This document shows, one piece after another, positions 27,071 through 44,553 of a stretch of DNA of 64,000 bases. The number at the start of each line of letters is the position of its first letter. The first letter of the stretch is position 1. The notes below the pieces were generated by a model, which was not told where the DNA came from, searched no databases, and saw nothing but the letters and a program-made list of their open reading frames with translations. Source of the stretch: Catellatospora sp. IY07-71 (GTDB lineage Bacteria; Actinomycetota; Actinomycetes; Mycobacteriales; Micromonosporaceae); contig NZ_AP023360.1 of NCBI RefSeq assembly GCF_018326265.1, positions 1,603,501 through 1,667,500 of the forward strand, read 5' to 3'. A program made the position numbers and the translations under genes.

Positions 27071-28213
27071 TCAGCCGCGGGTGTGGTGGCCGAGCATGTG
27101 GACCTGGCCGGTGCCTTCGACGATGTCGCCGACGTGCCAGCACTCGACGCCGCGGCCGGTGAGGAGGGCCATGGCGCGGTCGGCGTCGGCGGCGGAGACC
27201 ACCGCGAACATGCCGACGCCCATGTTGAAGGTCGACTCCAGGTCGGCGGTGTCGATGCGGCCCTTGCGCTGGATCAGGTCGAAGATCGGCTGCGGGGCCC
27301 AGGTGGAGCGGTTGACGATGGCGTCGACGTGCTTGGGGAGCACGCGGACCAGGTTGCCGGGGATGCCGCCGCCGGTGACGTGCACGAGCGCGTGCACCTC
27401 GCACTCGGCGATCAGCGTCAGGCAGTCCTTGGCGTAGATCTTGGTCGGGGTGAGCAGTTCCTCGCCGAGGGTGCGCTGGTCGCCCAGGTCCTCGATGACC
27501 GAGTCGAGCTTGAGCCGGGCCTGGCCGAGCAGCACGTGACGGACCAGCGAGTAGCCGTTGGAGTGCAGGCCGGAGGAGCGCATCGCGATGACCGCGTCGC
27601 CGACCTGGACCCGCTCGGCGCCCAGGATCTGGTCCTCCTCGACGACGCCGACGCCGTTGGCGGAGAGGTCGTACTCGTCCGGGCGCATCAGGCCGGGGTG
27701 TTCGGCGGTCTCGCCGCCCAGCAGCGCGCAGCCGGCGTACCGGCAGCCGTCGGCGATGCCCGCGCCGATCTCGGCGATGCGGTCCGGCACGACCTCGCCG
27801 CAGGCGATGTAGTCGAGCAGGAACAGCGGCTCCGCGCCGCAGGCGACCAGGTCGTCGACGACCATCGCGACCAGGTCGATGCCGACCGTGTCGTGGATGT
27901 TCATCTGCTGCGCGATGGCCAGCTTGGTGCCCACGCCGTCGGTCGACGAGGCCAGCACCGGGCTCTTGTACTTCGACGTGTCGAGCTTGAACAGGCCGGA
28001 GAAGCCGCCGAGGCCGCCCAGCACCTCCGGGCGGTGCGTACGCGCGACCTTGTCCTTCAGCATCTCCACGGCCCGGTCGCCGGCGTGGATGGACACGCCC
28101 GCGTCGGCGTAGGTGACGGTGCGCCGGCGGTTGGTGCTGCCCTCCGCCGTCCACAGCTGGCGGTTGCCGTTCTCCGGCTGCCCGGAGACGGGGCGCTCGG
28201 TCACGTGCGTCAC
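27071..28213 (-). CDS. purM: Phosphoribosylformylglycinamidine cyclo-ligase
   Basis: 380 residues from GTG 28213, chosen because AGGAG precedes it at a good distance; the open frame extends much further upstream but is shadow sequence. The enzyme closes the imidazole ring of AIR with ATP. Motifs: TYADAGVSIHAGDRAVEML, VLASSTDGVGTKL, VDDLVACGAEPLFLLDY, GGETAEHPG and HVTGGGIPGNL. It lies downstream of purF on the same strand. Confidence 0.96.
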   Translation of the reverse strand: MTHVTERPVSGQPENGNRQLWTAEGSTNRRRTVTYADAGVSIHAGDRAVEMLKDKVARTHRPEVLGGLGGFSGLFKLDTSKYKSPVLASSTDGVGTKLAIAQQMNIHDTVGIDLVAMVVDDLVACGAEPLFLLDYIACGEVVPDRIAEIGAGIADGCRYAGCALLGGETAEHPGLMRPDEYDLSANGVGVVEEDQILGAERVQVGDAVIAMRSSGLHSNGYSLVRHVLLGQARLKLDSVIEDLGDQRTLGEELLTPTKIYAKDCLTLIAECEVHALVHVTGGGIPGNLVRVLPKHVDAIVNRSTWAPQPIFDLIQRKGRIDTADLESTFNMGVGMFAVVSAADADRAMALLTGRGVECWHVGDIVEGTGQVHMLGHHTRG

Positions 28214-28281
28214 GGTTTTTCTCCTCTTTGTGCGCGGCACCGGCTTTTCAGGGAAGGGTGTCGGTGCCGTGACGAGTGGTG

Positions 28282-29814
<1,533 letters not shown>

Positions 29815-30363: not shown

Positions 30364-30518
30364 AAGCGGACGATACAAGATTACTTTTACTCATTATGTA
30401 CGGGCCCTGGGTCGCGCAATCCTTCCTTCGCAAGGCATAGTTGCGGGCGGTGTATTCCCGCAGCGCCCCCCACACCCCGCTCGCTGTGGGATATCGAGGA
30501 GCTTGGAAGGCGGTGGCC

Positions 30519-32516
30519 GTGACTACCCAGCGACGGTCCTGGTTGGCACGCGTCGGAGTGGTAGCGATGGTGTCGCTAGGCACACTCGTCGGCGTCTCCG
30601 CTCCGGCATCCGCGCAGGCGGCGTCGATCAACGTCGACTCGTTCCCGTCGTCCGCCAAGAAGGGCGACACGATCACGATCAAGGGATCGGTCAAGAACGA
30701 CAGCAGCCCGGGTGTGCCTTCGATCACCGCCGGTGACAACAGCTCAAAGGTCGAGTGCGTCCAGTGCAACTCGCCCGCTGACGACACGATCGAGGCTGAC
30801 GGCTCCAAGTCCTTCGAGTTCAAGCTCTCTGTGTCGGGCGATCCGGTGCAGGGCGACAAGGTCGAAGTCAAGATCGAGGCGGCCGGCGCCCAGGCTAAGA
30901 CGGTCACCATCAGCCTGCAGGCCGCACAGCAGTCGACCGGCACCATCGCCGGCACCGTGTACGACTCGCGCACCGGCCAGCCGCTCTCGGGCGCCCTCGT
31001 GCTGCTGTCCGACGGGAACGACAAGGAGTTCCCGGTCAAGACGACCGGCTCCAACGGCTCCTTCCGGTTCGTGCCGTCCGCCTCCGCGCCGATCGCGCCC
31101 GGTCTCATCGTGGTCACGGTCCAGAAGGACCCGTTCACGATGAAGACCTTCAGCCAGAACCTCGGCGCGGGCCAGTCGAAGACCGACATCCGGATCTCGA
31201 TGGTCAACGAGGCCGCGGCCAGCGCCACGCCGTCGGTCGAGGCGACGCCGACCGACGCCGCCAGCGCGCTGCCCGAGGATTCGGCCGGCACCGGCGAGGA
31301 GAGCCCCGGTGAGGCCGTCGACGTCTCCGGCGACCAGAAGGAAGAGGGCGGCCTGGACGCCATGACCTGGGTCATGATCATCCTGGGCGGTCTGCTGGTG
31401 GCGCTGGGTATCGGCGCGATCGTGCTGCTGGTGATGAAGCGCGGCGGCGACGACGATGACGACGACGAGGACGACGAGGACGACGACGACGAGCCGGTGC
31501 GCGGCCGTCCGGGCGTGCGTCCCGGCCAGCCCGTGCGGGCCGGAGCGGGTGCGGGCGTCTACGGCGGCGCCGGTGGTGGCACGTACGGCCGTCCCGCCGA
31601 CCCGACAATGGTGGCCCGCCCCGGAGCGGGCAACGACGCGACCGTGATGCACCGCCCCGGCGAGTACGGTGGCGTGCCGCAGCAGCGCGGCGCTCAGCAG
31701 CCCTACGGCTCCCCGGCCGCCACCCAGCAGTACGGCGGCTACGGCTCGCCGGTGGCCCCGACCAGCGGTTACAGCGGCGGCCAGCCCAGCTACGACCAGG
31801 CCGGCTACGGCGCTCCGCAGGGCGGCTACGGCTCGCCCGCAGCCCCGACCAGTGGCTACGGCAACCCGGCGCCGACCAGCGGCTACGGCAGCCCGGCCCC
31901 GACCAGCGGCTATGGCGGCAGCCCCGCCGGCGGCTACGGCTCGCCGGTGGCCCCGACCAGCGGCTACGGCGGCGGCCAGCCCGGCTACGGCGACCAGGGC
32001 GGCTACGGCCAGCAGCCCGGCGGGTACGGCCAGCAGGGCGGCTACGGTGCCCAGCAAGGCGGCTACGGCCAGCCGCAGGGCGGTTACCAGGGCCAGTACG
32101 ACGAGCCCACGCACTACGCGGGTCCGACCTCGGGTGGCAGCTACGGCTCGAACCAGGGCGGCTACGGCCAGGACCAGCAGAGCGGGTACGGCCAGCAGCA
32201 GGGCAGCTACGGGCAGGACTCGTACGGCGCCCAGCAGGGCGGCTACGGCCAGCAGCAGGACCCGTACGGCACCCAGCAGGCCGGCTACGGCCAGCAGGGC
32301 GGCTACGGCCAGGACTCATACGGCGCCCAGCAGGGCGGCTACGGCCAGCAGCAGGACCCGTACGGCACCCAGCAGGGCGGCTACGGCCAGCAGCAGAGCG
32401 GCTACGGCCAGGACCCGTACGGCAGCCAGCAGGACGGCTACGGCCAGCAGAACGGCTACGGCGACGACCGGCGCGGCAACCGCGGCGACCGCCGCCTCGA
32501 CTGGCTGGACGACTGA
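30519..32516 (+). CDS. Membrane-anchored protein with Gly/Tyr/Gln low-complexity cytoplasmic tail
   Basis: 665 residues from GTG 30519, eight bases after GGAAGG; an earlier in-frame start at 30441 would bury the signal peptide. Order: Sec signal peptide (about 1-32, ending APASAQAA), an Ig-like domain (35-135, with a Cys pair VECVQC), a carboxypeptidase-regulatory/CNA-B-like domain (140-230, [23 protein letters not shown]), an acidic Ser/Glu linker, one transmembrane helix (about 281-306), a run of Asp/Glu (about 311-325), then about 340 residues of [G/S]Y[G/S], QQ and APTSGYG repeats with about 40 Tyr. By the positive-inside rule the tail (K-R-G-G after the helix) is cytoplasmic. Composition resembles FUS/EWS-type low-complexity domains. 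Function unknown. Confidence 0.85.
32214..32405 (+). repeat. 96-bp direct repeat inside the low-complexity tail
   Basis: Two copies start at 32214 and 32310 (CAGGACTCNTACGGCGCCCA). They encode the same 32-residue block beginning [19 protein letters not shown]. The copies differ little at the DNA level, a sign of recent in-frame duplication by which the tail could change length. Confidence 0.75.
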
Positions 32517-32533
32517 CCCGCCCCACTTGCCCC

Positions 32534-32581
32534 ATCAAAGCTCCCGTCACGCTGTTCCGACAGCATGGCGGGAGCTTTGAT
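32534..32581. terminator. Hairpin after the low-complexity gene, overlapping the next ribosome-binding site
   Basis: Arms ATCAAAGCTCCCG and CGGGAGCTTTGAT with an inner GCTG/CAGC stem. The 3' arm contains GGGAG, which sits 8 bases before ATG 32583 of the radical SAM gene. Folding would therefore hide that ribosome-binding site. Confidence 0.75.
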
Positions 32582-32582
32582 C

Positions 32583-33722
32583 ATGGAAAAAGGCCGCGCG
32601 GTTTGCTGGAATGGGCGGGTGGCCGGTGTTGGCGGCATGCGGGGGCTGTCCCCCATGCCGGGGTATGTCGTGATGCAGCCGACGACGCTGTGCAATCTGG
32701 ACTGCGTCTACTGCTACCTGCCCCTGCGCGCGGCCGACCGGCGGATGCCGGTGGCGGTGGCCGAGGCGGTGGCTACGGACGCGAACGCCTGGGCGGCCGG
32801 GGGCCGCTTCTCCGTGGTCTGGCACGGCGGTGAGCCGCTGGCGGCCGGCCGCGAGCACCTGACGGCGCTGATGGCCCCGTTCGCGGCGGGGGTGGAGCAG
32901 CACGTGCAGACCAACGCGACGCTGGTGGACGACGCGTGGTGCGAGTTGTTCGCCGCTCGCGGGGTGCGGGTGAGCGTGAGCGTGGACGGCCCCGAGGACC
33001 TCAACGGGCAGCGTGTGTCGCGCGCGGGGCGGCCCGCGTACGACCGGATCGAGCGGGGGATCGCGGCGCTGCGGCGGCACGGCCTGCCGTTCGCGGCCCT
33101 GTGCGTGGTGGGCGAGCCGCGGCCGGGGCTGGCGGCCCGGCTGTACGGGTACTTCCTGGAGCTGGGCTGCGACATCCTCGGCGTCAACATCGAGGAGCGC
33201 GAGGGCGTCAACGAGCGTCCCAACGGGCATGACGCGATCGCGGTGCGGGCCTTCTGGGCCGAGCTGGCTGCGGCATGGCGGGCCGACCCGCGGATCCACG
33301 TGCGCGAGCTCGAATGGAGTCTGCGCTACCTGGGCGCGGTGCTGGACGGCACCGCCGACGGGCTGCTGCCGCGCACGCTGGACCCCATCCCGACGATCGG
33401 GTACGACGGCTCGGTGGTGCTGCTCTCGCCGGAGCTGGCCGGGTTCCACGATCCGGTGTACGGCGACTTCACCAGCGGTAACGTGCTCACCAGCCCGCTG
33501 TCGGCGCTGCTGGGGACGGCACGGACCGGCTGGGTGCCGGAGTTCCTCGACGGGATCGCCGCGTGCCGCACGTCCTGCCCGTACTTCGGTTTCTGCGGGG
33601 GCGGGCACGCCGCCAACCGCTACTTCGAGCACGGACGGTTCGACGGCACGGAGACCGAGCACTGCCGCAACAGCAAGATCAACCTACTGGAGGGAGTGCT
33701 CGACCATGTCCGACGAGACTGA
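32583..33722 (+). CDS. amcB: Cyclophane-forming radical SAM/SPASM peptide maturase (AmcB-like)
   Basis: 379 residues from ATG 32583; an alternative ATG at 32637 gives MRGLSPMPGY. The radical SAM motif is C37-x3-C41-x2-C44 in TTLCNLDCVYCYLPL, followed by WHGGEPL, VQTNATLVDD and VSVSVDGPED. The C-terminal SPASM region binds extra Fe-S clusters through CRTSCPYFGFCGGG and a late Cys in TETEHCRNSK. These enzymes join an aromatic ring carbon to the beta carbon of a residue two places on, making three-residue cyclophanes. The next gene, overlapping by 17 bases, encodes a fitting precursor. The Amc name is from memory of that family. Confidence 0.88.
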   Translation: MEKGRAVCWNGRVAGVGGMRGLSPMPGYVVMQPTTLCNLDCVYCYLPLRAADRRMPVAVAEAVATDANAWAAGGRFSVVWHGGEPLAAGREHLTALMAPFAAGVEQHVQTNATLVDDAWCELFAARGVRVSVSVDGPEDLNGQRVSRAGRPAYDRIERGIAALRRHGLPFAALCVVGEPRPGLAARLYGYFLELGCDILGVNIEEREGVNERPNGHDAIAVRAFWAELAAAWRADPRIHVRELEWSLRYLGAVLDGTADGLLPRTLDPIPTIGYDGSVVLLSPELAGFHDPVYGDFTSGNVLTSPLSALLGTARTGWVPEFLDGIAACRTSCPYFGFCGGGHAANRYFEHGRFDGTETEHCRNSKINLLEGVLDHVRRD

Positions 33723-33900
33723 CCGCCTGGCCGACCGGATCCTGGACGCCCGCGCCGAACTCGCTCCCCTGCTGGAGGAGGCGCGGCTGGCGCGGCTGGC
33801 CCGTTCTGAAGGGCCAGGCACGGACGGCGGCGCCGTCTGTGCCTGGAACCACTTCGAGAACATCCCGACCTTCTTCAACTGGAACAACCGGCCGCGCTGA
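33706..33900 (+). CDS. amcA: Multi-cyclophane RiPP precursor peptide (AmcA-like)
   Basis: 64 residues from ATG 33706, inside the maturase 3' end but in another frame, after GGAGGGAGTG. The leader is a charged helix (residues 2-34, DRLADRILDARAELAPLLEE). The core is CAWNHFENIPTFFNWNNRPR (45-64). It has four aromatic-x-x triplets suited to cyclophane formation: W47-N-H, F50-E-N, F56-F-N and W59-N-N. Only one Cys (C45) is present. No protease or transporter gene is adjacent, so removal of the leader would need an enzyme encoded elsewhere. Confidence 0.88.
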   Translation: MSDETDRLADRILDARAELAPLLEEARLARLARSEGPGTDGGAVCAWNHFENIPTFFNWNNRPR

Positions 33901-33921
33901 GCGGCGGTGCCCACAGGAAGA

Positions 33922-34170
33922 TCAGCGGCGGGGAGTCCAGTCCTTACCGTCGTCGTCATCGTCATCGTCGTCGACGGCGTAATTCGCGTACGGGTCGTAC
34001 GGATCGCGCTCGTCGTCGTCGTGATCCTCGGCAACAGTACTGCCGCTGCCGCTGCTGAGCTCGTTACCTCCGAGCTCGCGCTGCAAGGCGGCGAGGTCGG
34101 TGTTCGGGGAGTGATACTTCAACTCCCGGGCCACCTTAGTCTGCTTGGCCTTAGCTCGGCCGCGCCCCAT
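33922..34170 (-). CDS. DUF3073 family small protein
   Basis: 82 residues, MGRGRAKAKQTKVARELKYHSPNTDLAALQRELG then a very acidic C-terminus with a run of eight Asp. The N-terminal signature is the DUF3073 family, found near leucine dehydrogenase and bldC in many actinomycetes. Basic head and acidic tail suggest a nucleic-acid or ribosome partner, but no function is known to me. It converges on amcA with only 21 bp between stops. The 264 bp upstream to the leucine dehydrogenase stop hold its likely promoter and one terminator. Confidence 0.9.
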   Translation of the reverse strand: MGRGRAKAKQTKVARELKYHSPNTDLAALQRELGGNELSSGSGSTVAEDHDDDERDPYDPYANYAVDDDDDDDDGKDWTPRR

Positions 34171-34376
34171 GGCCGACCCCCTCGCACATGAATGACGGGG
34201 CTACCCGAAGGCGGGCCCCGATGACGTCAGACATCTCTCGTGGGTCATACGGTACATGGGAGGAGGGCACTTCGGCATCTCGGGTTACCGGGTGTCTGAC
34301 AGCACATCGGAACCTGTCCGTTTTATGACTGGTAAGGAGTATATCGCTCCCCAGTAATGACGGTCCAATTCCCGGC

Positions 34377-34421
34377 CGAAGCCCCCGGTCGCGCTGTTTC
34401 AGCAGCTCGGCGGGGGCTTCG
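34377..34421. terminator. Hairpin after leucine dehydrogenase
   Basis: Arms CGAAGCCCCCG and CGGGGGCTTCG with an inner GCTG/CAGC stem. It is placed 13 bp beyond the minus-strand stop at 34435. Confidence 0.8.
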
Positions 34422-34434
34422 ACCATGAAAGGGG

Positions 34435-35496
34435 TCAGACCCGGATGGTCCGGAGGCGGCCCACCTCGGCGATGCGCTGCTCGGCGAGGCGGTCCGCGGC
34501 GGCGGCCGGGGAGATGCCCTCGGCGTCCGCCGTTTCCAGGATTCGCTTCGTCGTGTCGTAGATCTTGGTGGCGCGCAGCTTGGCCCGCTCGAAGCTGAAG
34601 CCGTCGATCTCGTCCGCGACCTGGATCACGCCGCCCGAGTTCACCAGGTAGTCGGGCGCGTACAGGATGCCTCGGTCGAGCAGCAGCTTCTCGACGCCGG
34701 CGTGCGCGAGCTGGTTGTTGGCCGCACCGGCCACGATCTGGGCCTTCAGGGCGGGCACCGTGTCGTCGTTGAGCGCGCCGCCCAGCGCGCACGGCGCGTA
34801 GACGTCGATGTCGCCGGCGACCAGCGCGGTGGCGTCGGCGACCAGGGTGACCTGGGGGTAGGTGGCCTTGGCCCACTCCAGCGCCTTCGGGTGCACGTCG
34901 GTCGCCACGACCTCGGCGCCGTCCTCGATCAGGTGGGCGGTCAGGTACTTGCCGACCTTGCCCAGCCCGGCCACGCCGACCCGGCGGCCCTTGAGCGACG
35001 GGGTGCCCCAGCGGTGCTCGGCCGCGGCGCGCATGCCCTGGAAGACGCCCCAGGCGGTGAGGACCGACGAGTCGCCGGCGCCGCCGTACTCGACGCTGCG
35101 GCCGGTGACGAACTTCGTCTCCCGGGCCACGACGTCCATGTCCTGGACGTAGGTGCCGACGTCGCACGCGGTGTAGTAGCGGCCGCCCAGGGACTGGACG
35201 AACCGGCCGTACGCCCGCAGCAGCTGCTCGGACTTGATCTGCTCCGGGTCGCCCCAGATGACGGCCTTGCCGCCGCCGAGGTCGAGCCCGGCGAGGGCGT
35301 TCTTGTACGCCATGCCCCGGGAGAGGTCGAGCACGTCGTGCAGCGCCTCCTCCTCCGTGGCGTACGGGTAGAAGCGCGTGCCGCCCAAGGCGGGGCCGAG
35401 CGCCGTCGAGTAGATGCCGATGATGGCCTTCAGGCCGCTGGCCCGGTCCTGGCAGAACACGACCTGTTCGTGACTGCCGTCGCTGAATACGCCCAC
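34435..35496 (-). CDS. Leucine (Glu/Leu/Phe/Val-family) dehydrogenase
   Basis: 353 residues from GTG 35496. The N-terminal substrate domain shows [35 protein letters not shown] (catalytic Lys) and the conserved Asp in YYTACDVGT. The NAD domain shows [20 protein letters not shown]. The C-terminal [22 protein letters not shown] is typical of leucine/valine dehydrogenases. It reversibly deaminates branched-chain amino acids to 2-oxo acids. Val, Leu or Phe preference is not decided by sequence. Divergent from the next gene with a 124-bp gap. Confidence 0.93.
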
Positions 35497-36946: not shown

Positions 36947-37624
36947 TCAGGGCACCAGCGCGCCGTCGCGGAGGGTGACCACGCGGTCGGCCATGTCCAT
37001 CAGGGCCGCGTCGTGCGTGGCGACCAGGGCGGTCATGCCGCGGGCGTGCACCAGGGCACGCAGCAGGTCCATGATCTGACGGCCGGTCTCCGAGTCGAGC
37101 TGGCCCGTCGGCTCGTCCGCGATCAGCAGCTGCGGGTCGTTGGCCAGCGCGCGGGCCACCGCCACGCGCTGCTGCTGGCCGCCGGACAGCTCGTACGGCC
37201 GCTGGTTGGCGTGCGCGCCGACGCCGACCAGCTCCAGCAGCACCGCCACCCGCTGGTCCCGCTCGGCGGGGCGCACCTTGGCCAGCCGCAGCGGCACGCC
37301 CACGTTCTCGGCCGCCGACAGGATCGGCACCAGCCCGAACGACTGGAACACGAAGCCGATCACGTCCCGGCGCAGCGCCACCAGCTGCGGCTCAGCCGCC
37401 GAGGTGACCTCCTGCCCCGCGATGAAGACCTTGCCCGAGGTCGGCCGGTCCAGCCCGCCGATGATGTTGAGCAGGGTCGTCTTGCCCGCGCCCGAGCGGC
37501 CGCGTACGGCGACCAGCTCGCCGCGCCCGGCGGTGAACGAGACGTCCCGCACCGCGTGCACGACCTTGCCCGCCCGGCCGAAGTCGCGGGACACGTTCTC
37601 GACCCTGACCAGCTCTTCAGCCAC
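36947..37624 (-). CDS. ABC exporter ATPase (MacB/LolD type), second copy
   Basis: 225 residues from GTG 37624, five bases after GGAGGT and overlapping the previous gene by 8 bases. Walker A is GRSGAGKTT, the Q-loop VFQSFGLVPILSAAENV, signature LSGGQQQRVAVARAL, Walker B LLIADEPT and the H-loop ALVATHD. It belongs to the group that pairs with FtsX-like permeases. Last gene of a four-gene exporter operon; the two ATPases may form a heterodimer. Confidence 0.92.
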   Translation of the reverse strand: MAEELVRVENVSRDFGRAGKVVHAVRDVSFTAGRGELVAVRGRSGAGKTTLLNIIGGLDRPTSGKVFIAGQEVTSAAEPQLVALRRDVIGFVFQSFGLVPILSAAENVGVPLRLAKVRPAERDQRVAVLLELVGVGAHANQRPYELSGGQQQRVAVARALANDPQLLIADEPTGQLDSETGRQIMDLLRALVHARGMTALVATHDAALMDMADRVVTLRDGALVP

Positions 37625-38579
37625 GGCGCACCTCCACACGGTCGGACTCCAGGGTGAGCTTCACCCGGTCCTTGAGCTCCAGTTCCTCCACGAACGCGCC
37701 GGGCAGCTGCATGCGCCCGGCCCGGTCCAGCACCGCGTACTCCTCGCTGACCAGCTCGGTGCCGCCGTCGGCGGTGGCCCGCGCGGTCCGGCGCACCTCC
37801 GAGGCCAGCCGGCCGTCGCGGATCGCCACGGTACGCCGCACCTGCGTGGCCACGTTCGGGTCGTGCGTCACCACGACCACGGTCACGCCCAGCTCGGCGT
37901 TAATCGTCTGCAGCGCGCCGAACACCTCGGCCGCGGTCGACTCGTCCAGCTCGCCGGTCGGCTCGTCGGCGAACAGCACCTCGGGGTCGTTGGCCACGGC
38001 CAGCGCCACCGCCACGCGCTGCTGCTCGCCGCCGGACATCTGGTCCGGGCGGCGGTCCGCGCAGTAGCCGACGCCGACCATCTCCAGCAACTCCAGCGCG
38101 CGCTCGCGGGCCTTGCGGCCGGACCGCGTGCCAGCCAGCCGCATCGGGGTCACCACGTTCTCCAGCGCGGTCAGGTACGGCAGCAGGTTGCGGCCGGTCT
38201 GCTGCCACACGAAGCCGACCATGTGCCGCCGGTACGACAGCCGCTTCTTCGCCGACATGGTGAGCAGGTCGTACTCGCCCACCCGGGCGATGCCCGCGGT
38301 CGGCACGTCGAGGCCGGACAGGATGTTCAGCAGGGTCGACTTGCCGGAGCCGGAGGCGCCGACGATGGCCAGCAGCTCGCCCCGGTCCACCACCAGGTCG
38401 AGTCCCTGCAGCGCGACGACCTCGACGCCCTCGGTCTTGTAGATCCGCACCAGCCCGTCGCACACCAGGTGCCCGCGCAGCCGGTCGGCGCCGCCGGCCC
38501 GGTCCGCGGCCCGCTGCGCGGCACGTGCCTGCAGCGTGGCGAGGTCCGGCGGCGCGATGGTCTCGTCAGTGGTCGACAT
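37617..38579 (-). CDS. ABC exporter ATPase with C-terminal AbrB/MazE-like domain
   Basis: 320 residues. A 35-residue N-terminal extension precedes the ATPase core (Walker A GASGSGKST, VWQQTGRNLLPYLTALENV, signature MSGGEQQRVAVAL, Walker B VLFADEPT, VVVVTHDP). After the core, about residues 275-318 (YAVLDRAGRMQLPGAFVEELELKDRVKLTL) look like a swapped-hairpin AbrB-type element, an unusual addition for an ABC ATPase. Its start shares one base with the stop of the upstream permease. Confidence 0.9.
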   Translation of the reverse strand: MSTTDETIAPPDLATLQARAAQRAADRAGGADRLRGHLVCDGLVRIYKTEGVEVVALQGLDLVVDRGELLAIVGASGSGKSTLLNILSGLDVPTAGIARVGEYDLLTMSAKKRLSYRRHMVGFVWQQTGRNLLPYLTALENVVTPMRLAGTRSGRKARERALELLEMVGVGYCADRRPDQMSGGEQQRVAVALAVANDPEVLFADEPTGELDESTAAEVFGALQTINAELGVTVVVVTHDPNVATQVRRTVAIRDGRLASEVRRTARATADGGTELVSEEYAVLDRAGRMQLPGAFVEELELKDRVKLTLESDRVEVRRG

Positions 38580-41233
38580 CAGCTCTCTCCCGCTTCGAAG
38601 GAACCGAGCCGGAGCACCTCACCGAGGCGCAGCCGGCGGTTGAACAGGGTTTCCACCGCGAGCGCGGTCAGCATTCCGATCAGCACCAGCGCCACCGCGG
38701 CGCCGGCCACCAGCGGGTCGAAGGCGACCCCGACCGTGATCCCGTCGGTGAACGTGTCGAGGCCCAGCGCGGGGGCGATGAGCCGCGGCATCGCCACGCC
38801 CACCGCCGCGCCGGTCAGCACCGCCACGGTGACCACCGGCATCAGCTCCACCAGCAGCAGGCCGCGGCCCTGGCCCCGGGTCAGGCCCATGGTCCGCAGC
38901 CGGGACAGCACGGTGCCGCGGCCCCGGGCGCCGGAGACGACGGCGAAGCCGATCGCCAGCAGGGCGAGCACCACACCGGTGCCCGCGCCGATGGCGAACG
39001 CGAAGGTGATCACCGCGTTGACGCTCGTCTCATCCAGGCTCGCGCGGGTCTGGTCCCAGGTCGTCACCTGCGTGACCGGCTCGTACGCCTTCGCGCGGTA
39101 GCCGGTGCTCGCCCAGCGCTCCTGCCCGGCGTCGCCCACCGCGCGCAGCGCCTGCGGGTCCGGGTCGCCCGCCAACAGGTAGCCGCTGGGCAGCAGCGCC
39201 TGCCGGCTGTCCGCCGGGAACGCCTGCCAGGGCAGCACGACGAAGTTCGTCGCGCCGTTGGCGATCGGCGGGAACCCGTCGACCACCGCGGCCACCGAGA
39301 AGTCGTAGAACCGGCCGCGCAGCGTCACCATGGGCTTGCCGTCGCCGATCTGCTTCGCGGCTCCGGGCGAGACCAGGGCCGGGATGACCGGGCTCTGGCC
39401 CGCCTCGGTGAACGCCGCGGGCGGGGTGACCTCGACCCCGGATTCGGCCAGCACCTTCGCGTAGGCCGGGCCGTCCAGCACCAGCGCGTACACCGTGCCC
39501 TTGCGCTGCTGGTCGACGGCCAGGTCGCCGGCCGACTCGACCATGTAGGGGGCCACCGCGGTCACCCCGGGCACGGCGGCCAGCTCGGTGGCCGTCCGCT
39601 CGTCGAAGTAGTAGCCGTCGACCTTGACGTCCGCGGCCATCCGCAGGTCCGTGGCGCGGTCGCGGCCGGAGTCGATGGTGCCCGCGACGGCCACGCTGAA
39701 CACCGCGGTGCTCACCGCGACGACCAGCACGGCCACCGGGCCGATCACGGCGCCCGCGGTGCGGCCCGCCCGGGACAGGCCCAGGAAGCCGACCGCGCCC
39801 CGGCGGCGTACGGCCAGCCGGCCCAGCCAGGCGACCACCGGCGGGATCACCCGCACCATGGCCACCGCCGCGCCCGCGGCCAGCAGCGCGGGCACCGCCG
39901 CCAGGTAGACGTCGACCTCACCGGACTCGCTCAGGCCGCGCTCGCGCAGCAGCCATACGCCCGCCCCGGCGAGCACCAGCAGGCTCAGCTCGGCGGTGCG
40001 CCGCTTCAGGCCCACCCGGGTGCTCGCCACGTCGGCGCGCTCGCCGGAGAACGACGGGTCGCGCGAGGTGCGCATGGTCATCACCGGCACGGCCAGCACC
40101 GCCAGCGCGGTGAACACGGCCAGCACCGGCCAGGTGGCCGCGGGCCGCCCCGGCACCGCCGTGCCGGCCAGCGCCCCGACGATCGCGGCGGGCACCACGA
40201 GCAGCGATTCCAGCAGGGTGTACGACCCGATGGTCAGGATCGCCCCGCCCCGGGCCCGCAGCAGCGCGAACTCGGCCCGCCGCCGGCTCACCAGCACACG
40301 CGCGGCCAGCAGCACCAGCCCGGCCAGGGTGACCAGCGCGCCCACCTGCACCACGGCGAGCAGCGCCTGGGCGGCGCGGGCGCGCTCGGCGAACCGGGCC
40401 AGCGCGGTGTCCAGGCCGGTCGTCAGCGACGACTCGATGCCCTGCCGCCGGGCGACGTTGGCCGCCTCGACCACGGCGGGCAGCACGGCCATGTCGAGCG
40501 TCGCGGTGTCGATGCGGTAGCGCCACTCGTAGACGACCGGCGCCAGCTTCTCCAGCAGGGCCAGCCCGGCCTGGTCGGAGAAGACCACCGCGCGGTACGG
40601 GTCGCCGTCGTCGTTGGGCAGGTAGGCCCGGAGGCCGGTCGGCATCGGCTCCCAGTAGGTGCCGTTCTCGTCGTGCGGCTCGATGATGCCGACGACCTCC
40701 ATCGGCACCCGGTCGTGGAAGCGGAAGGTGCTGCCGACCCGCTGCTCCAGCTGCTCGGCGTTCCACTTGGTGAGCACGACCTCGACCGTGCGGTTCTCGC
40801 CCGGCTGGGTGTGCGGCCACCGGCCCTCGACCAGGTCGGCCTGCTCCTCCAGCCCGCTGCCGGCGCGGACGCTGAACAGCGGCGGGGTGCGTTCCGGCAG
40901 GCCGGTGCCGCGTACGAACGACTCGTCCTGCACCGTCGCCAGGGCCCACCAGGACTGCGTGACGCGCTCCCGCAGGGCGGGGTAGAGGACCGCCTGCTGC
41001 TGCTCCAGGCGCCGCTGCGGGTCCCAGTTGGCGTTCTCCGGCTTCGTCGCGCGGTAGGTGAGGTCACGGGAGGTGTAGCTGAGGGGCGAGACGTCGTTGC
41101 GCAGGCCGTCGTCGGTCAGCTGGTTGGCGACCCGCGGCGCGCCGAGCGCGAGCAGGCCGGCCGCGAGCGTGAGCACCCCCAGCAGGGCCAGGGGCCCGGC
41201 TCCGGCCCGTACCCGGGCGATCCAACCCTTCAC
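38579..41233 (-). CDS. FtsX-like ABC permease, 884 residues
   Basis: Starts GTG 41233, overlapping the upstream stop by 4 bases. Layout: an N-terminal helix (about 13-32), a large extracellular MacB-like domain (about 35-290), a block of helices with a LLRARGG cytoplasmic motif near 330, a second extracellular domain (about 530-725), and three terminal FtsX helices including RGTVLSRLRTMGLTRGQGRGLL. This two-fold layout matches large actinobacterial FtsX permeases. Substrate unknown; antibiotic or lipid export is possible. Confidence 0.88.
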   Translation of the reverse strand: MKGWIARVRAGAGPLALLGVLTLAAGLLALGAPRVANQLTDDGLRNDVSPLSYTSRDLTYRATKPENANWDPQRRLEQQQAVLYPALRERVTQSWWALATVQDESFVRGTGLPERTPPLFSVRAGSGLEEQADLVEGRWPHTQPGENRTVEVVLTKWNAEQLEQRVGSTFRFHDRVPMEVVGIIEPHDENGTYWEPMPTGLRAYLPNDDGDPYRAVVFSDQAGLALLEKLAPVVYEWRYRIDTATLDMAVLPAVVEAANVARRQGIESSLTTGLDTALARFAERARAAQALLAVVQVGALVTLAGLVLLAARVLVSRRRAEFALLRARGGAILTIGSYTLLESLLVVPAAIVGALAGTAVPGRPAATWPVLAVFTALAVLAVPVMTMRTSRDPSFSGERADVASTRVGLKRRTAELSLLVLAGAGVWLLRERGLSESGEVDVYLAAVPALLAAGAAVAMVRVIPPVVAWLGRLAVRRRGAVGFLGLSRAGRTAGAVIGPVAVLVVAVSTAVFSVAVAGTIDSGRDRATDLRMAADVKVDGYYFDERTATELAAVPGVTAVAPYMVESAGDLAVDQQRKGTVYALVLDGPAYAKVLAESGVEVTPPAAFTEAGQSPVIPALVSPGAAKQIGDGKPMVTLRGRFYDFSVAAVVDGFPPIANGATNFVVLPWQAFPADSRQALLPSGYLLAGDPDPQALRAVGDAGQERWASTGYRAKAYEPVTQVTTWDQTRASLDETSVNAVITFAFAIGAGTGVVLALLAIGFAVVSGARGRGTVLSRLRTMGLTRGQGRGLLLVELMPVVTVAVLTGAAVGVAMPRLIAPALGLDTFTDGITVGVAFDPLVAGAAVALVLIGMLTALAVETLFNRRLRLGEVLRLGSFEAGES

Positions 41234-44200
41234 CGGTCAGCTCCGATCCGCAGCTGGGCGGCGGCCAGCCGCTGCCGCATCGTGGTCGCGACGAGCCCGG
41301 CCAGCACCAGGGTGATGGCGAGCAGGATCGCCGCCGTGCCGAGCACTGGCGGCCAGTCCGTCGTGGTGAGCGCGGGCGGCACGGGCCGGCTCGCGCTCGG
41401 GGTGAGGATCACCAGCGGGCCGGTGGTCCGCGCGACGAACATGCCCACCAGCAGGCCGACGGCCACGCCGAGCCCGGCCAGGAACGCCTGCTCGATCATC
41501 AGGGCACGGGCCAGCAGGTTCGGCGTGGCGCCGAGGGTGTTGAGCACGGCCAGCTCGGCGACCCGCCGCCGGGCGGTGGCCCGCACGTCGACCGCGACGC
41601 CGACCAGGGCCAGCCCGATCGCGCCCAGCGCCGCGATGAACAGCGCGATACGCGCACCGGCGCCGAACGGGTCGTCTGCGGCGTGCAGCGCCAGGGCGTG
41701 CCGGTCGATGGTGAGCAGGTTGGGCAGCGAGGCGGCCGCGGCGGCGGCCTCGGCGTGCCGGGCCGGGTCGGTACGCAGCCACCACTCGCTGATGACCGGG
41801 ATCCGGGGGGCACCCTCCCGCTGCAGGTGAGCGGCGAGCGCGGGCATGTCGACCAGCAGCGCGGCGGGCTCCAGCCCGCCGGGCAGCGCGGTGGCCTCGC
41901 CGGTCACGTGCACCGTCGTGGTGACGCCCCACAGCGGGACGTCCACCTTCGCGCCGACCTGGGTGTGCAGCGCGGCGAGCGCCTCCGGGGTGGCCAGCAC
42001 GGGCACGGTGACGGGCGGGGCGTCGGGTCGCAGCGTGAACGTGTACGGCACGTTGACCGCGCCGCCCGGATCCATCATGTCGACCCGGGCGCCGTCGCCG
42101 GTCACCGCGACCTTGACCTCGCCGTGGCTGCCCGGAACGCCCCAGCTGCCACCCGGCAGGCCGAGGTCGAGCGGGACCGCGGCGCCGGTCGCGGCGACGG
42201 TGGACAGCCCGGTGAGCTCCCAGGTGATGCGCAGCCCGAAGGGCATGTCGGGCCCGTCGGTAGCGAAACCGGTCAGCCGCAGCCCGGCCGTGTCCGGCAC
42301 CGGCACGTCGAACGCGTACCCGTCGGCGTCGTCGCTCTCGGCGAGCGGCACCACGTGCACGCCGCCGTGCTCGTCGGTGAACAGGGCAGAGCTCGCCTCC
42401 CGGGGCCGGGCCAGGAAGTCCTGCCCGTTCGCGGTGACGCGGACCGAGCCGCGCAGCGACTTCGTCCCGGCCGGCACGGCCACGCCCGGCGCCTGCCGGC
42501 TCTCCGCGGTCAGCGCGGCGGTCAGCGCGTGGATGTCACCCATGTCCGCCCGCATCCGCAGCACGTCGCCGGCGGCCGCGGCGTCGAGTGCGAGCAGCGA
42601 GACCGCTGTCTCCCGCTCGCCCGCGGTCAGCGTGGTCCGCCAGGCGGGCAGCGCGGCGGCGACGCCGGGCAGCGCGGCGACCTGGCTCACCCGCTGGCGC
42701 GGGGCGATCCAGGACGTCTCGGTCAGGCGCAGGTCCGCGCCCGTGGTGTGGTCGGCCTGGTCCAGCTGGGACTGCCGGGCGGTCGCGGCGAGCGTCCAGG
42801 CCAGCGTGCTGACCGCGACGCTCAGCGCCAGCAGCAGCACCGGCCCGGCGTGCGGGCGGCGGCCGGCCTGCCATACGCCGAGCTGGGCGGCGAACCAGGA
42901 CCTGCGGTCGACCTGGCGCTCCAGCAGCCGGGTCAGCGGCGGCAGCAGGCGCAGCGCGACGACCGCGCCGGCCAGCACGCCGAGCGGCCCGGCGGCGGCC
43001 AGCATCGGGTCGATGCCCAGCTCGCCGGCGACCCCGGACAGCGGGGAGTCGTACTGCCGCAGCTGGAACCAGGCGAGCACGGCGAAGCCGATGAGCGCGA
43101 GGTCCAGACCGGCGCGCTGGGCCACGGCGGTGCGGCTGGGCCGGGAACGGGCGGCCAGGTCGGCCACGTAGGTGCCGCCGCCGCGCAGCGCGGGCAGTAG
43201 CATGGCCAGCACGCAGCCGAGCCCGGCGGTCACCGCGACGCCGACGGTGAGAGGGCTGATGCCGCCCTCCAGGCGCAGCCCGATGGCCGCCAGCGCGGGC
43301 ACCCGCTCGGCGAGCTTGAGCAGCGGCGCGACCAGCAGCGGGGCGAGCACGGCACCCGGGGCCGCGATCAGCAGCGCCTCCCACGCGGCGAGCCCGGCGA
43401 GCTGGCCGCGGGACGCGCCGCGGGCACGCAGCAGTGCGGTCTCCGCCCGGCGGCCTTCGGTGAGCAGCGCCGCCAGCAGGATCAGGGCGTACCCGCCGAG
43501 GATCGAGATGAGCAGGAGCGGGGTGAGCAGGTCGGAGCGGCCGACGAGGCTGGCCTGCTGGATGCGGTCGACCAGGCGTTCCAGGTGCGTCGAGGCCTGG
43601 CCGCCCTCGCCGTAGCCCAGTTCCTTGGGCACCTCGCCGAGGGTGGTCACGGCGCCGCGGGCGGCGACGAGTTCGGACAGCAGCGCCCGGGACAGGTCGG
43701 GGGTGACCACCCAGCCGCTGTTGCCGAGGTAGGACCAGCCGTCGAAGAAGTCCTCCCGGTTGAGCACCAGCGGGCCGTACGTGTTGCGGCCCGGCTCGAC
43801 GCCCTCGGCGATCTCCGGCACGAGCAGCCAGTACGGGTCGTCGGCGGTCAGCGGCGCGAACACGCCGACGACCTCGACCTCCTGGACCTTCTTGGTGATG
43901 CCGTTGGTCATCCGCACCCGGGAGCCGGTCTTGAGGCCCAGCGCGTGCGCGGCGGCCTCGCCGACGACGGTCTGCGGCACCTGCGCGCCGGTCTGCGGCC
44001 AGCTGCCGGAGACGAGCCGGGCGTGCGCGGCGAGGTCCTCCAGGAACATGACCCGGGCGTAGACGACGCCGTAGGAGTCGGCCACCGCGTCCCCGGTGTC
44101 GCCGTTGAAGCGCAGGCCGCTGGCGTACCCGGCGGCGGTGACCGAGAGGCGGGTGTCGCCGAACCGGCGCGCGAACGACTCGCGCAGCTTGGCGTCCGTG

Positions 44201-44463
44201 GCGGTCCACGACTCGGCGGAGAACGACTTGCCGACGTCCTCCCCGGTGGAGACCCAGCCGCTGCCGCCCGTGCGCGAGGGCAGCCGGATCTGGATCGCCC
44301 GTTCGTCCGGCGGCGCCGCGGCGACGGCCGCCCGGCCGCCCGCCTCGATCACCGCGCCGCTGTAACTCGCCAGTGCCACCAGCAGCGTGGTCGAGATCAG
44401 CGCTGCCGCAGCCGCGGCTGTCAACAGGCCCTTCGCGCTGTAGGCCCGCCGACGTCCCAGCAT
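41230..44463 (-). CDS. FtsX-like ABC permease, 1077 residues
   Basis: ATG 44463 with AAGGAGGC six bases upstream; the frame is open to 44490. Same plan as its downstream partner: an N-terminal helix (KGLLTAAAAAALISTTLLVALASYSGAV), a large extracellular domain, a helix block with ALLRARGASRGQLAGLAAWEALL, a second extracellular domain of about 330 residues, and terminal helices with ELAVLNTLGATPNLLARALMIEQAFL. Two unlike permeases and two unlike ATPases suggest a heterodimeric exporter. A TetR gene lies 90 bp upstream. Confidence 0.88.
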   Translation of the reverse strand: MLGRRRAYSAKGLLTAAAAAALISTTLLVALASYSGAVIEAGGRAAVAAAPPDERAIQIRLPSRTGGSGWVSTGEDVGKSFSAESWTATDAKLRESFARRFGDTRLSVTAAGYASGLRFNGDTGDAVADSYGVVYARVMFLEDLAAHARLVSGSWPQTGAQVPQTVVGEAAAHALGLKTGSRVRMTNGITKKVQEVEVVGVFAPLTADDPYWLLVPEIAEGVEPGRNTYGPLVLNREDFFDGWSYLGNSGWVVTPDLSRALLSELVAARGAVTTLGEVPKELGYGEGGQASTHLERLVDRIQQASLVGRSDLLTPLLLISILGGYALILLAALLTEGRRAETALLRARGASRGQLAGLAAWEALLIAAPGAVLAPLLVAPLLKLAERVPALAAIGLRLEGGISPLTVGVAVTAGLGCVLAMLLPALRGGGTYVADLAARSRPSRTAVAQRAGLDLALIGFAVLAWFQLRQYDSPLSGVAGELGIDPMLAAAGPLGVLAGAVVALRLLPPLTRLLERQVDRRSWFAAQLGVWQAGRRPHAGPVLLLALSVAVSTLAWTLAATARQSQLDQADHTTGADLRLTETSWIAPRQRVSQVAALPGVAAALPAWRTTLTAGERETAVSLLALDAAAAGDVLRMRADMGDIHALTAALTAESRQAPGVAVPAGTKSLRGSVRVTANGQDFLARPREASSALFTDEHGGVHVVPLAESDDADGYAFDVPVPDTAGLRLTGFATDGPDMPFGLRITWELTGLSTVAATGAAVPLDLGLPGGSWGVPGSHGEVKVAVTGDGARVDMMDPGGAVNVPYTFTLRPDAPPVTVPVLATPEALAALHTQVGAKVDVPLWGVTTTVHVTGEATALPGGLEPAALLVDMPALAAHLQREGAPRIPVISEWWLRTDPARHAEAAAAAASLPNLLTIDRHALALHAADDPFGAGARIALFIAALGAIGLALVGVAVDVRATARRRVAELAVLNTLGATPNLLARALMIEQAFLAGLGVAVGLLVGMFVARTTGPLVILTPSASRPVPPALTTTDWPPVLGTAAILLAITLVLAGLVATTMRQRLAAAQLRIGADR

Positions 44464-44553
44464 GGCGCCTCCTTGGCTCCCGATCACCAACCTCTGTAGA
44501 AGCAGGGAGGAGCCTTGACCGGTTCACACGCCGTGACGGCTGTTACCGGACCG

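Follow-up and report, generated by a model that had tools for sequence, protein, structure and literature searches.

We found that the amcBA locus of Catellatospora sp. IY07-71 is the form that the actinobacterial AmcA/AmcB triceptide system takes in Micromonosporaceae, a membership established by curated models of both proteins. The AmcA/AmcB kind is already known; what this analysis adds is that across Micromonosporaceae amcBA is common, keeps its chromosomal neighbours and hardly varies. We consider it probable that AmcB forms about three cyclophanes on AmcA, that the pair is largely vertically inherited and that its product has a conserved endogenous role. The literature searched contained no report on AmcA/AmcB or on the evolutionary picture of amcBA, part of which may be covered by Phan and Morinaka 2022, the primary AmcB paper, and Sugiyama 2022 (the 'AmcB' of PMC10311463 is a chemical abbreviation, not the maturase).

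The amcBA locus and its family

The genome carrying amcBA is a single contig of 8.6 Mb, and the 64,000-nucleotide stretch of it that we analysed, referred to here as the window, holds the following features:

27071..29814, minus strand: purM (open frame within 27071-28279) and purF (28282-29814); TIGR00878 and TIGR01134 over cut-off
32534..32581, plus strand: strong hairpin, lacking a T tract, between a gene for a GQY-rich protein and amcB (fold of 32517-32660, z -4.09)
32583..33722, plus strand: amcB, predicted radical SAM/SPASM cyclophane maturase; NF041718 at 494.5 bits, conserved Cys
33706..33900, plus strand: amcA, 64-residue precursor; NF041722 at 106.7 bits, overlapping the amcB stop by 17 bases
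33706..33828, plus strand: variable AmcA leader, residues 1-41; 52% mean pairwise identity
33832..33897, plus strand: conserved AmcA core AVCAWNHFENIPTFFNWNNRPR, residues 43-64; near-identity across loci and low pN/pS
33922..34170, minus strand: DUF3073 gene, convergent neighbour; PF11273 at 83.6 bits, matched in 75 of 80 loci
36947-44490, minus strand: ABC-transporter cluster, beginning 3 kb from amcBA, beyond bldC

The sequence agrees with the original prediction in its basic layout: amcB stops at 33722, 17 bases into an amcA frame that starts with the ATG at 33706 and runs for 64 codons, whose C-terminus CAWNHFENIPTFFNWNNRPR (C45 to R64) carries the triplets W47-N-H, F50-E-N, F56-F-N and W59-N-N. 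That this arrangement exceeds chance is indicated by the NCBIfam equivalog models (hmmscan), against which AmcB, read from ATG 32583 as a 379-residue frame, passed the curated cut-off of NF041718 (AmcB; 494.5 bits vs. 425) and AmcA that of NF041722 (AmcA type 3a; 106.7 bits vs. 65). Because both proteins pass curated cut-offs, amcBA belongs to a named and known kind, as the prediction had supposed when it proposed the comparison with AmcA/AmcB. The locus resembles the type 3a members of this actinobacterial triceptide maturase group (NF041718, NF041722) in cut-off scores, maturase-first gene order and multi-triplet core, and it shows a genetic layout of triceptide systems, a SPASM maturase gene next to one for a precursor that contains aromatic-X-X triplets. 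Neighbouring models scored below their cut-offs: AmcA reached 23.4 bits against NF041723 (AmcA type 3b; cut-off 65), and the second-best family for AmcB was TIGR04261 (GrrM/OscB; 223.4 bits vs. 310), whose precursors are Gly-rich, unlike the AmcA of the window.

AmcB contains the radical SAM CxxxCxxC motif, whose Cys columns (37/41/44) are kept in all but one of 115 aligned loci; a further four Cys columns near the C-terminus (328/332/338/361), taken to be SPASM-type in keeping with the family name, are kept in 113-115 of the 115. By sequence, the nearest solved structures, the radical SAM domain of ChlB (57.7 bits) and a sulfatase-maturating enzyme (55.3 bits), are both remote. The closest named AmcB, at 94%, is that of Catellatospora bangladeshensis, and the next ones come mostly from further Catellatospora and from other genera of Micromonosporaceae. 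The amcB/amcA pair was found again in further genomes; taking for each locus the ATG nearest the window's position, an amcA ATG overlaps the end of amcB in 102 relatives' loci, mostly by 32 bases (61) or 17 bases (25).

Three starts are candidates for amcB, namely ATG 32583, which the original prediction used, GTG 32619 and ATG 32637. The ATG 32583 is found at the same place in one of eight Catellatospora relatives (L036) and is absent in the other seven, and 8/8 have an in-frame GTG lying 18 nt ahead of the conserved M-R-G methionine, which in the window is GTG 32619. Depending on the start chosen, 66 to 102 bases separate amcB from the GQY-rich gene, and this interval contains the hairpin at 32534-32581, in an arm of which sits the Shine-Dalgarno-like GGGAG of ATG 32583. 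The original prediction had placed the ribosome-binding site of amcB in a terminator hairpin and argued from this for low or conditional expression. The placement is weakened, as it belongs to a start missing in 7/8 congeners; the hairpin is not followed by a T tract, and a scan of 32400-34500 returned no terminator-like site. Low or conditional expression of amcBA is therefore uncertain.

The GQY-rich protein gene itself (30441-32516, plus strand; 691 residues) encodes a PF13620 domain (carboxypeptidase-regulatory-like) followed by or joined to a long low-complexity tail rich in Gly, Tyr and Gln. One inner arm, CGCTGTTNNNNCAGC, occurs in two hairpin loops (32550-32564 and 34392-34406) on either side of the amcBA-DUF3073 segment; the window has two exact matches to it and five at up to one mismatch (shuffles: mean 1.67, with 4/100 reaching 5).

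Core conservation and inheritance of the site

Among 80 AmcB-selected loci, 69 carry the 3a core, 5 a type 3b precursor, 1 a short type and 2 a type 1 precursor, while none was found in 3, one of which (L100) lies on a contig that stops at AmcB. These loci are the best 80 of 91 relatives from the AmcB search, which favours close relatives, so the share of 3a is perhaps inflated. Nevertheless, conservation of the short frame next to the maturase, the point on which the original prediction had staked its refutation, is borne out by the same core recurring in 69/80. A similarity search with the window's AmcA that used no motif filter gave an AmcA-like frame in 96/116 loci (counting the window's own place twice, as L001 and L116, and including L031 and L046, which look like one duplicated contig). 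In 94 of these 96 the last 22 residues are identical save residue 57, which is Tyr in 82 and Phe, as in the window, in 12; the remaining two are type 3b, and no intermediate core form appeared in this search.

The codon table, identities and pN/pS values come from loci chosen with a motif filter under which most positions of the core are fixed, and the core figures are conditional on that filter. With this condition, the core has pS 0.402, pN 0.0053 and pN/pS 0.013 (69 motif-filtered 3a loci), and AmcB has pN/pS 0.22 (two blocks in 49 of the 69 loci, 20 being dropped). Over 67 loci (13 of the 80 were dropped), mean pairwise identity is 98.9% in the motif-filtered core, 97% in BldC, 87% in PurF, 86% in PurM, 82% in the dehydrogenase, 76% in AmcB and 52% in the leader, for which up to 40 residues ahead of the core were taken. 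On this codon evidence the 3a core is under strong purifying selection. One might suppose that the conservation acts on the nucleic acid, as an RNA element to which the peptide is irrelevant, and the near fixation of AAC and TTC codons would fit such an element, although GC-rich codon bias can explain it; yet six Arg and four Pro codons are in use in the motif-filtered loci (rows L116-L121 were dropped from this table), and with a pS of 0.40 the residues stay constant (pN 0.005). Since synonymous sites vary and residues do not, we rejected conservation at the RNA level, to which we give next to no credence.

The usual place of amcBA is between purM and the DUF3073 gene; neighbours matched in the 80 loci were DUF3073 (75), PurF (74), the dehydrogenase (72) and BldC (72), and purM lies upstream of amcB on the same strand in 65 loci, at a median of ~164 bases from the codon of AmcB residue 19. 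Whereas purF and purM of most relatives thus lie upstream on the strand of amcB, the window's lineage departs from typical type 3a loci in that the upstream block (purM, purF, an SCP-like gene and the GQY-rich gene) is inverted relative to amcB in eight Catellatospora loci and in Catelliglobosispora (L043), and therefore amcB of the Catellatospora lineage comes after the GQY-rich gene, not after purM. The bases right before amcB in L043 and L056 read Leu-Asp-Asp-stop, resembling the end of the window's GQY-rich gene.

AmcB distances correlate in rank with those of PurM (0.85), PurF (0.76) and the dehydrogenase (0.74), compared with 0.87 between PurM and PurF, as expected of largely vertical inheritance. 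In an AmcB tree of 113 sequences (out of 117 loci; L107 and L114 were left out for length, L002 and L100 by choice), the 92 rows with a 3a core form one clade with support 0.88, broken only by two short-type rows. A third core type and type 3b, the latter a grade and not one clade, fall outside the 3a clade; support at the deepest splits is low (0.38-0.46), with all syntenic AmcBs as one clade at 0.38. These comparisons suggest that the pair at the purM-amcBA-DUF3073 site has been inherited largely vertically, and the single clade of the 3a loci suggests one origin of the 3a core, with very little change since.

Among 150 sampled Micromonosporaceae genomes, apparently one set for all three types to judge from shared handles, AmcA 3a is over cut-off in 100 and 3b in 11, none of them among the 100 with 3a; 111/150 therefore have one or the other and 39/150 neither, which indicates that amcBA is not essential everywhere and that some lineages either do without its function or encode it differently. 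Sampling more widely, we found AmcA 3a in 3/296 genomes of the class, all three Micromonosporaceae, and AmcB over cut-off in 48/298 genomes of the order, with G162 and G235 as the genomes outside Micromonosporaceae among the matches listed. In 44 of the 150 Micromonosporaceae genomes there was no 3a match, and 19 of the 20 listed ones have a DUF3073 gene. Of the DUF3073 stretches from these 19, six carry AmcB with another precursor type (L103/L147 and L105/L145 among the non-3a stretches repeat named loci), four (L142, L148, L150 and L157) gave no AmcB match although purM and DUF3073 are both present, and the other nine, in which purM falls outside the stretch, are silent on the purM-DUF3073 gap.

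Type 1 AmcA (NF041721) is over cut-off in 13/150 Micromonosporaceae genomes, as against 100/150 for 3a, and the 13 include the window genome's own decayed locus; type 1 has F-D-N/W-D-N triplets beside an AmcB-like gene, a likeness to the window, and differs in its core. In the window's genome, a second AmcB-like gene (L002, G000:C1:6414509-6418384, at about 1501-2525) covers only profile positions 1-294 of 362 and scores 420 bits, under cut-off, and its frame extends over a type 1 precursor (FDN/WDN triplets) that is encoded in another frame; the locus has the appearance of a type 1 AMC locus that has decayed.

Number of rings and precursor types

Enzymes forming three-residue cyclophanes join an aromatic residue to the beta carbon two residues on, so that triceptide crosslinks link residues i and i+2, according to the part of PMC11002830 available, and a hydrogen-abstraction mechanism is described in the accessible text of PMC12257519. 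AmcB would recognise the variable AmcA leader and, in aromatic-X-X triplets, remove a beta hydrogen from the third residue, whose beta carbon it would then join to the aromatic ring; this may yield about three, possibly four, three-residue cyclophanes on AmcA: at F50-E-N, F56-F-N and W59-N-N, with W47-N-H doubtful. The candidate ring sites, with their counterparts in other AmcA types as aligned by eye, are:

33844..33852, plus strand: W47-N48-H49, candidate ring A (doubtful); constant in 3a loci, WRP, WRA or PRP in 3b
33853..33861, plus strand: F50-E51-N52, candidate ring B; FEN in 3a, FED or FSD in 3b
33871..33879, plus strand: F56-F57-N58, candidate ring C; FYN/FFN in 3a, FYQ/FWE in 3b, FTE in the third type
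33880..33888, plus strand: W59-N60-N61, candidate ring D, followed by R-P-R; WNN in 3a and the short type, FTN or FSN elsewhere

Type 3b precursors (NF041723) also stand beside AmcB at the same site and, like the window's AmcA, end in a run of triplets, F-x-[QE]-F-[TS]-N, with R-P mostly following the last one (FTN/FSN). They differ in lacking C-A-W-N-H and in having one additional residue before P-T-F; Cys45 and His49 are likewise missing from the third-type precursors. Three aromatic triplets thus persist in the 3b relatives and W-N-H does not, which favours three rings over four and suggests three conserved ring sites and one doubtful site specific to 3a. Of the 'up to four rings' of the original prediction, the three at triplets kept in 3b are the better candidates, and the fourth is weakened by the replacement of W-N-H.

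A fourth ring, which would need a crosslink from W47 to the His beta carbon, is possible but doubtful in our judgement. W-N-H is constant in 94 3a loci and directly adjoins F50-E-N, and the third precursor type, which occupies the same site, likewise carries four of them (W-T-D, F-T-T, F-T-E and F-S-N), both of which observations would fit a ring there; on the contrary, 3b relatives have W-R-P, W-R-A or, without Trp, P-R-P at this place, the acceptors described in the available part of PMC11002830 are Asn, Asp, Arg, Ser and Ala but not His, and the Cys-Ala-Trp-Asn-His stretch could serve otherwise, e.g. in metal binding.

That third core type, RWTDVFTTQFTEFSNRPR, lies behind AmcB at the same site in L144 and L156 with the triplets WTD, FTT, FTE and FSN; it stays below the cut-offs of both NCBIfam models for AmcA type 3 (best 21.5 bits vs. 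65) and could represent an AmcA type that has no model yet. A shortened core, CESTGTYYNWNNRSR, occupies the same site in L145/L105 (a metagenome-assembled genome, apparently one duplicated contig), inside the 3a clade and with the last triplets kept.

Role of the product

We reasoned that a core under strong purifying selection, near-frozen, widespread and largely vertically inherited makes an endogenous role most likely, and the likeliest role of the product would accordingly be a conserved endogenous function of Micromonosporaceae, not that of a diversifying antibiotic. Core conservation by itself names no function, and other cores occupy the same site in some relatives.

Alternatively, the product could be an antibacterial or signalling peptide, acting in the manner of darobactin, for which a general transporter would serve as exporter and a housekeeping protease would do the trimming. 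Darobactin, a crosslinked radical-SAM peptide, does act on Gram-negative bacteria, as stated in the part of PMC9055067 available, and in the window an ABC-transporter cluster starts 3 kb from amcBA, which qualifies the original prediction that no protease, exporter or immunity gene is adjacent; between purM and bldC in the window, indeed, none of the three was recognised. However, a match to the first ATPase of this cluster lies near just 16/80 loci, so the cluster is probably not dedicated to amcBA, and we judged a dedicated exporter within it unlikely. The antibacterial or signalling reading, moreover, sits poorly with a core that is nearly identical in many genera and an AmcB that tracks housekeeping genes, and the patchy type 1 AmcA (13/150) shows the pattern of an accessory metabolite, which 3a does not; we consider this reading unlikely.

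Within the endogenous role that we favour, AmcA 3a may go further and be a core-genome RiPP, that is, a family-wide, sequence-frozen endogenous multi-cyclophane factor encoded beside purM/DUF3073 and not a specialised metabolite. It could then be a cofactor-, metal-binding- or envelope-type peptide, of which the constant Cys45 and His49 would be 3a-specific additions. We advance this more specific reading tentatively, rating it somewhat short of an even chance.

According to PMC12257519, the bioactivities of triceptides still await elucidation. A peptide core more conserved, in motif-filtered loci, than the neighbouring purine biosynthesis enzymes, and encoded in a two-gene locus that most of the sampled Micromonosporaceae genomes carry, would make the role of a triceptide directly testable. 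For genome miners it carries a warning, as the amcBA 'cluster' behaves as core genome.
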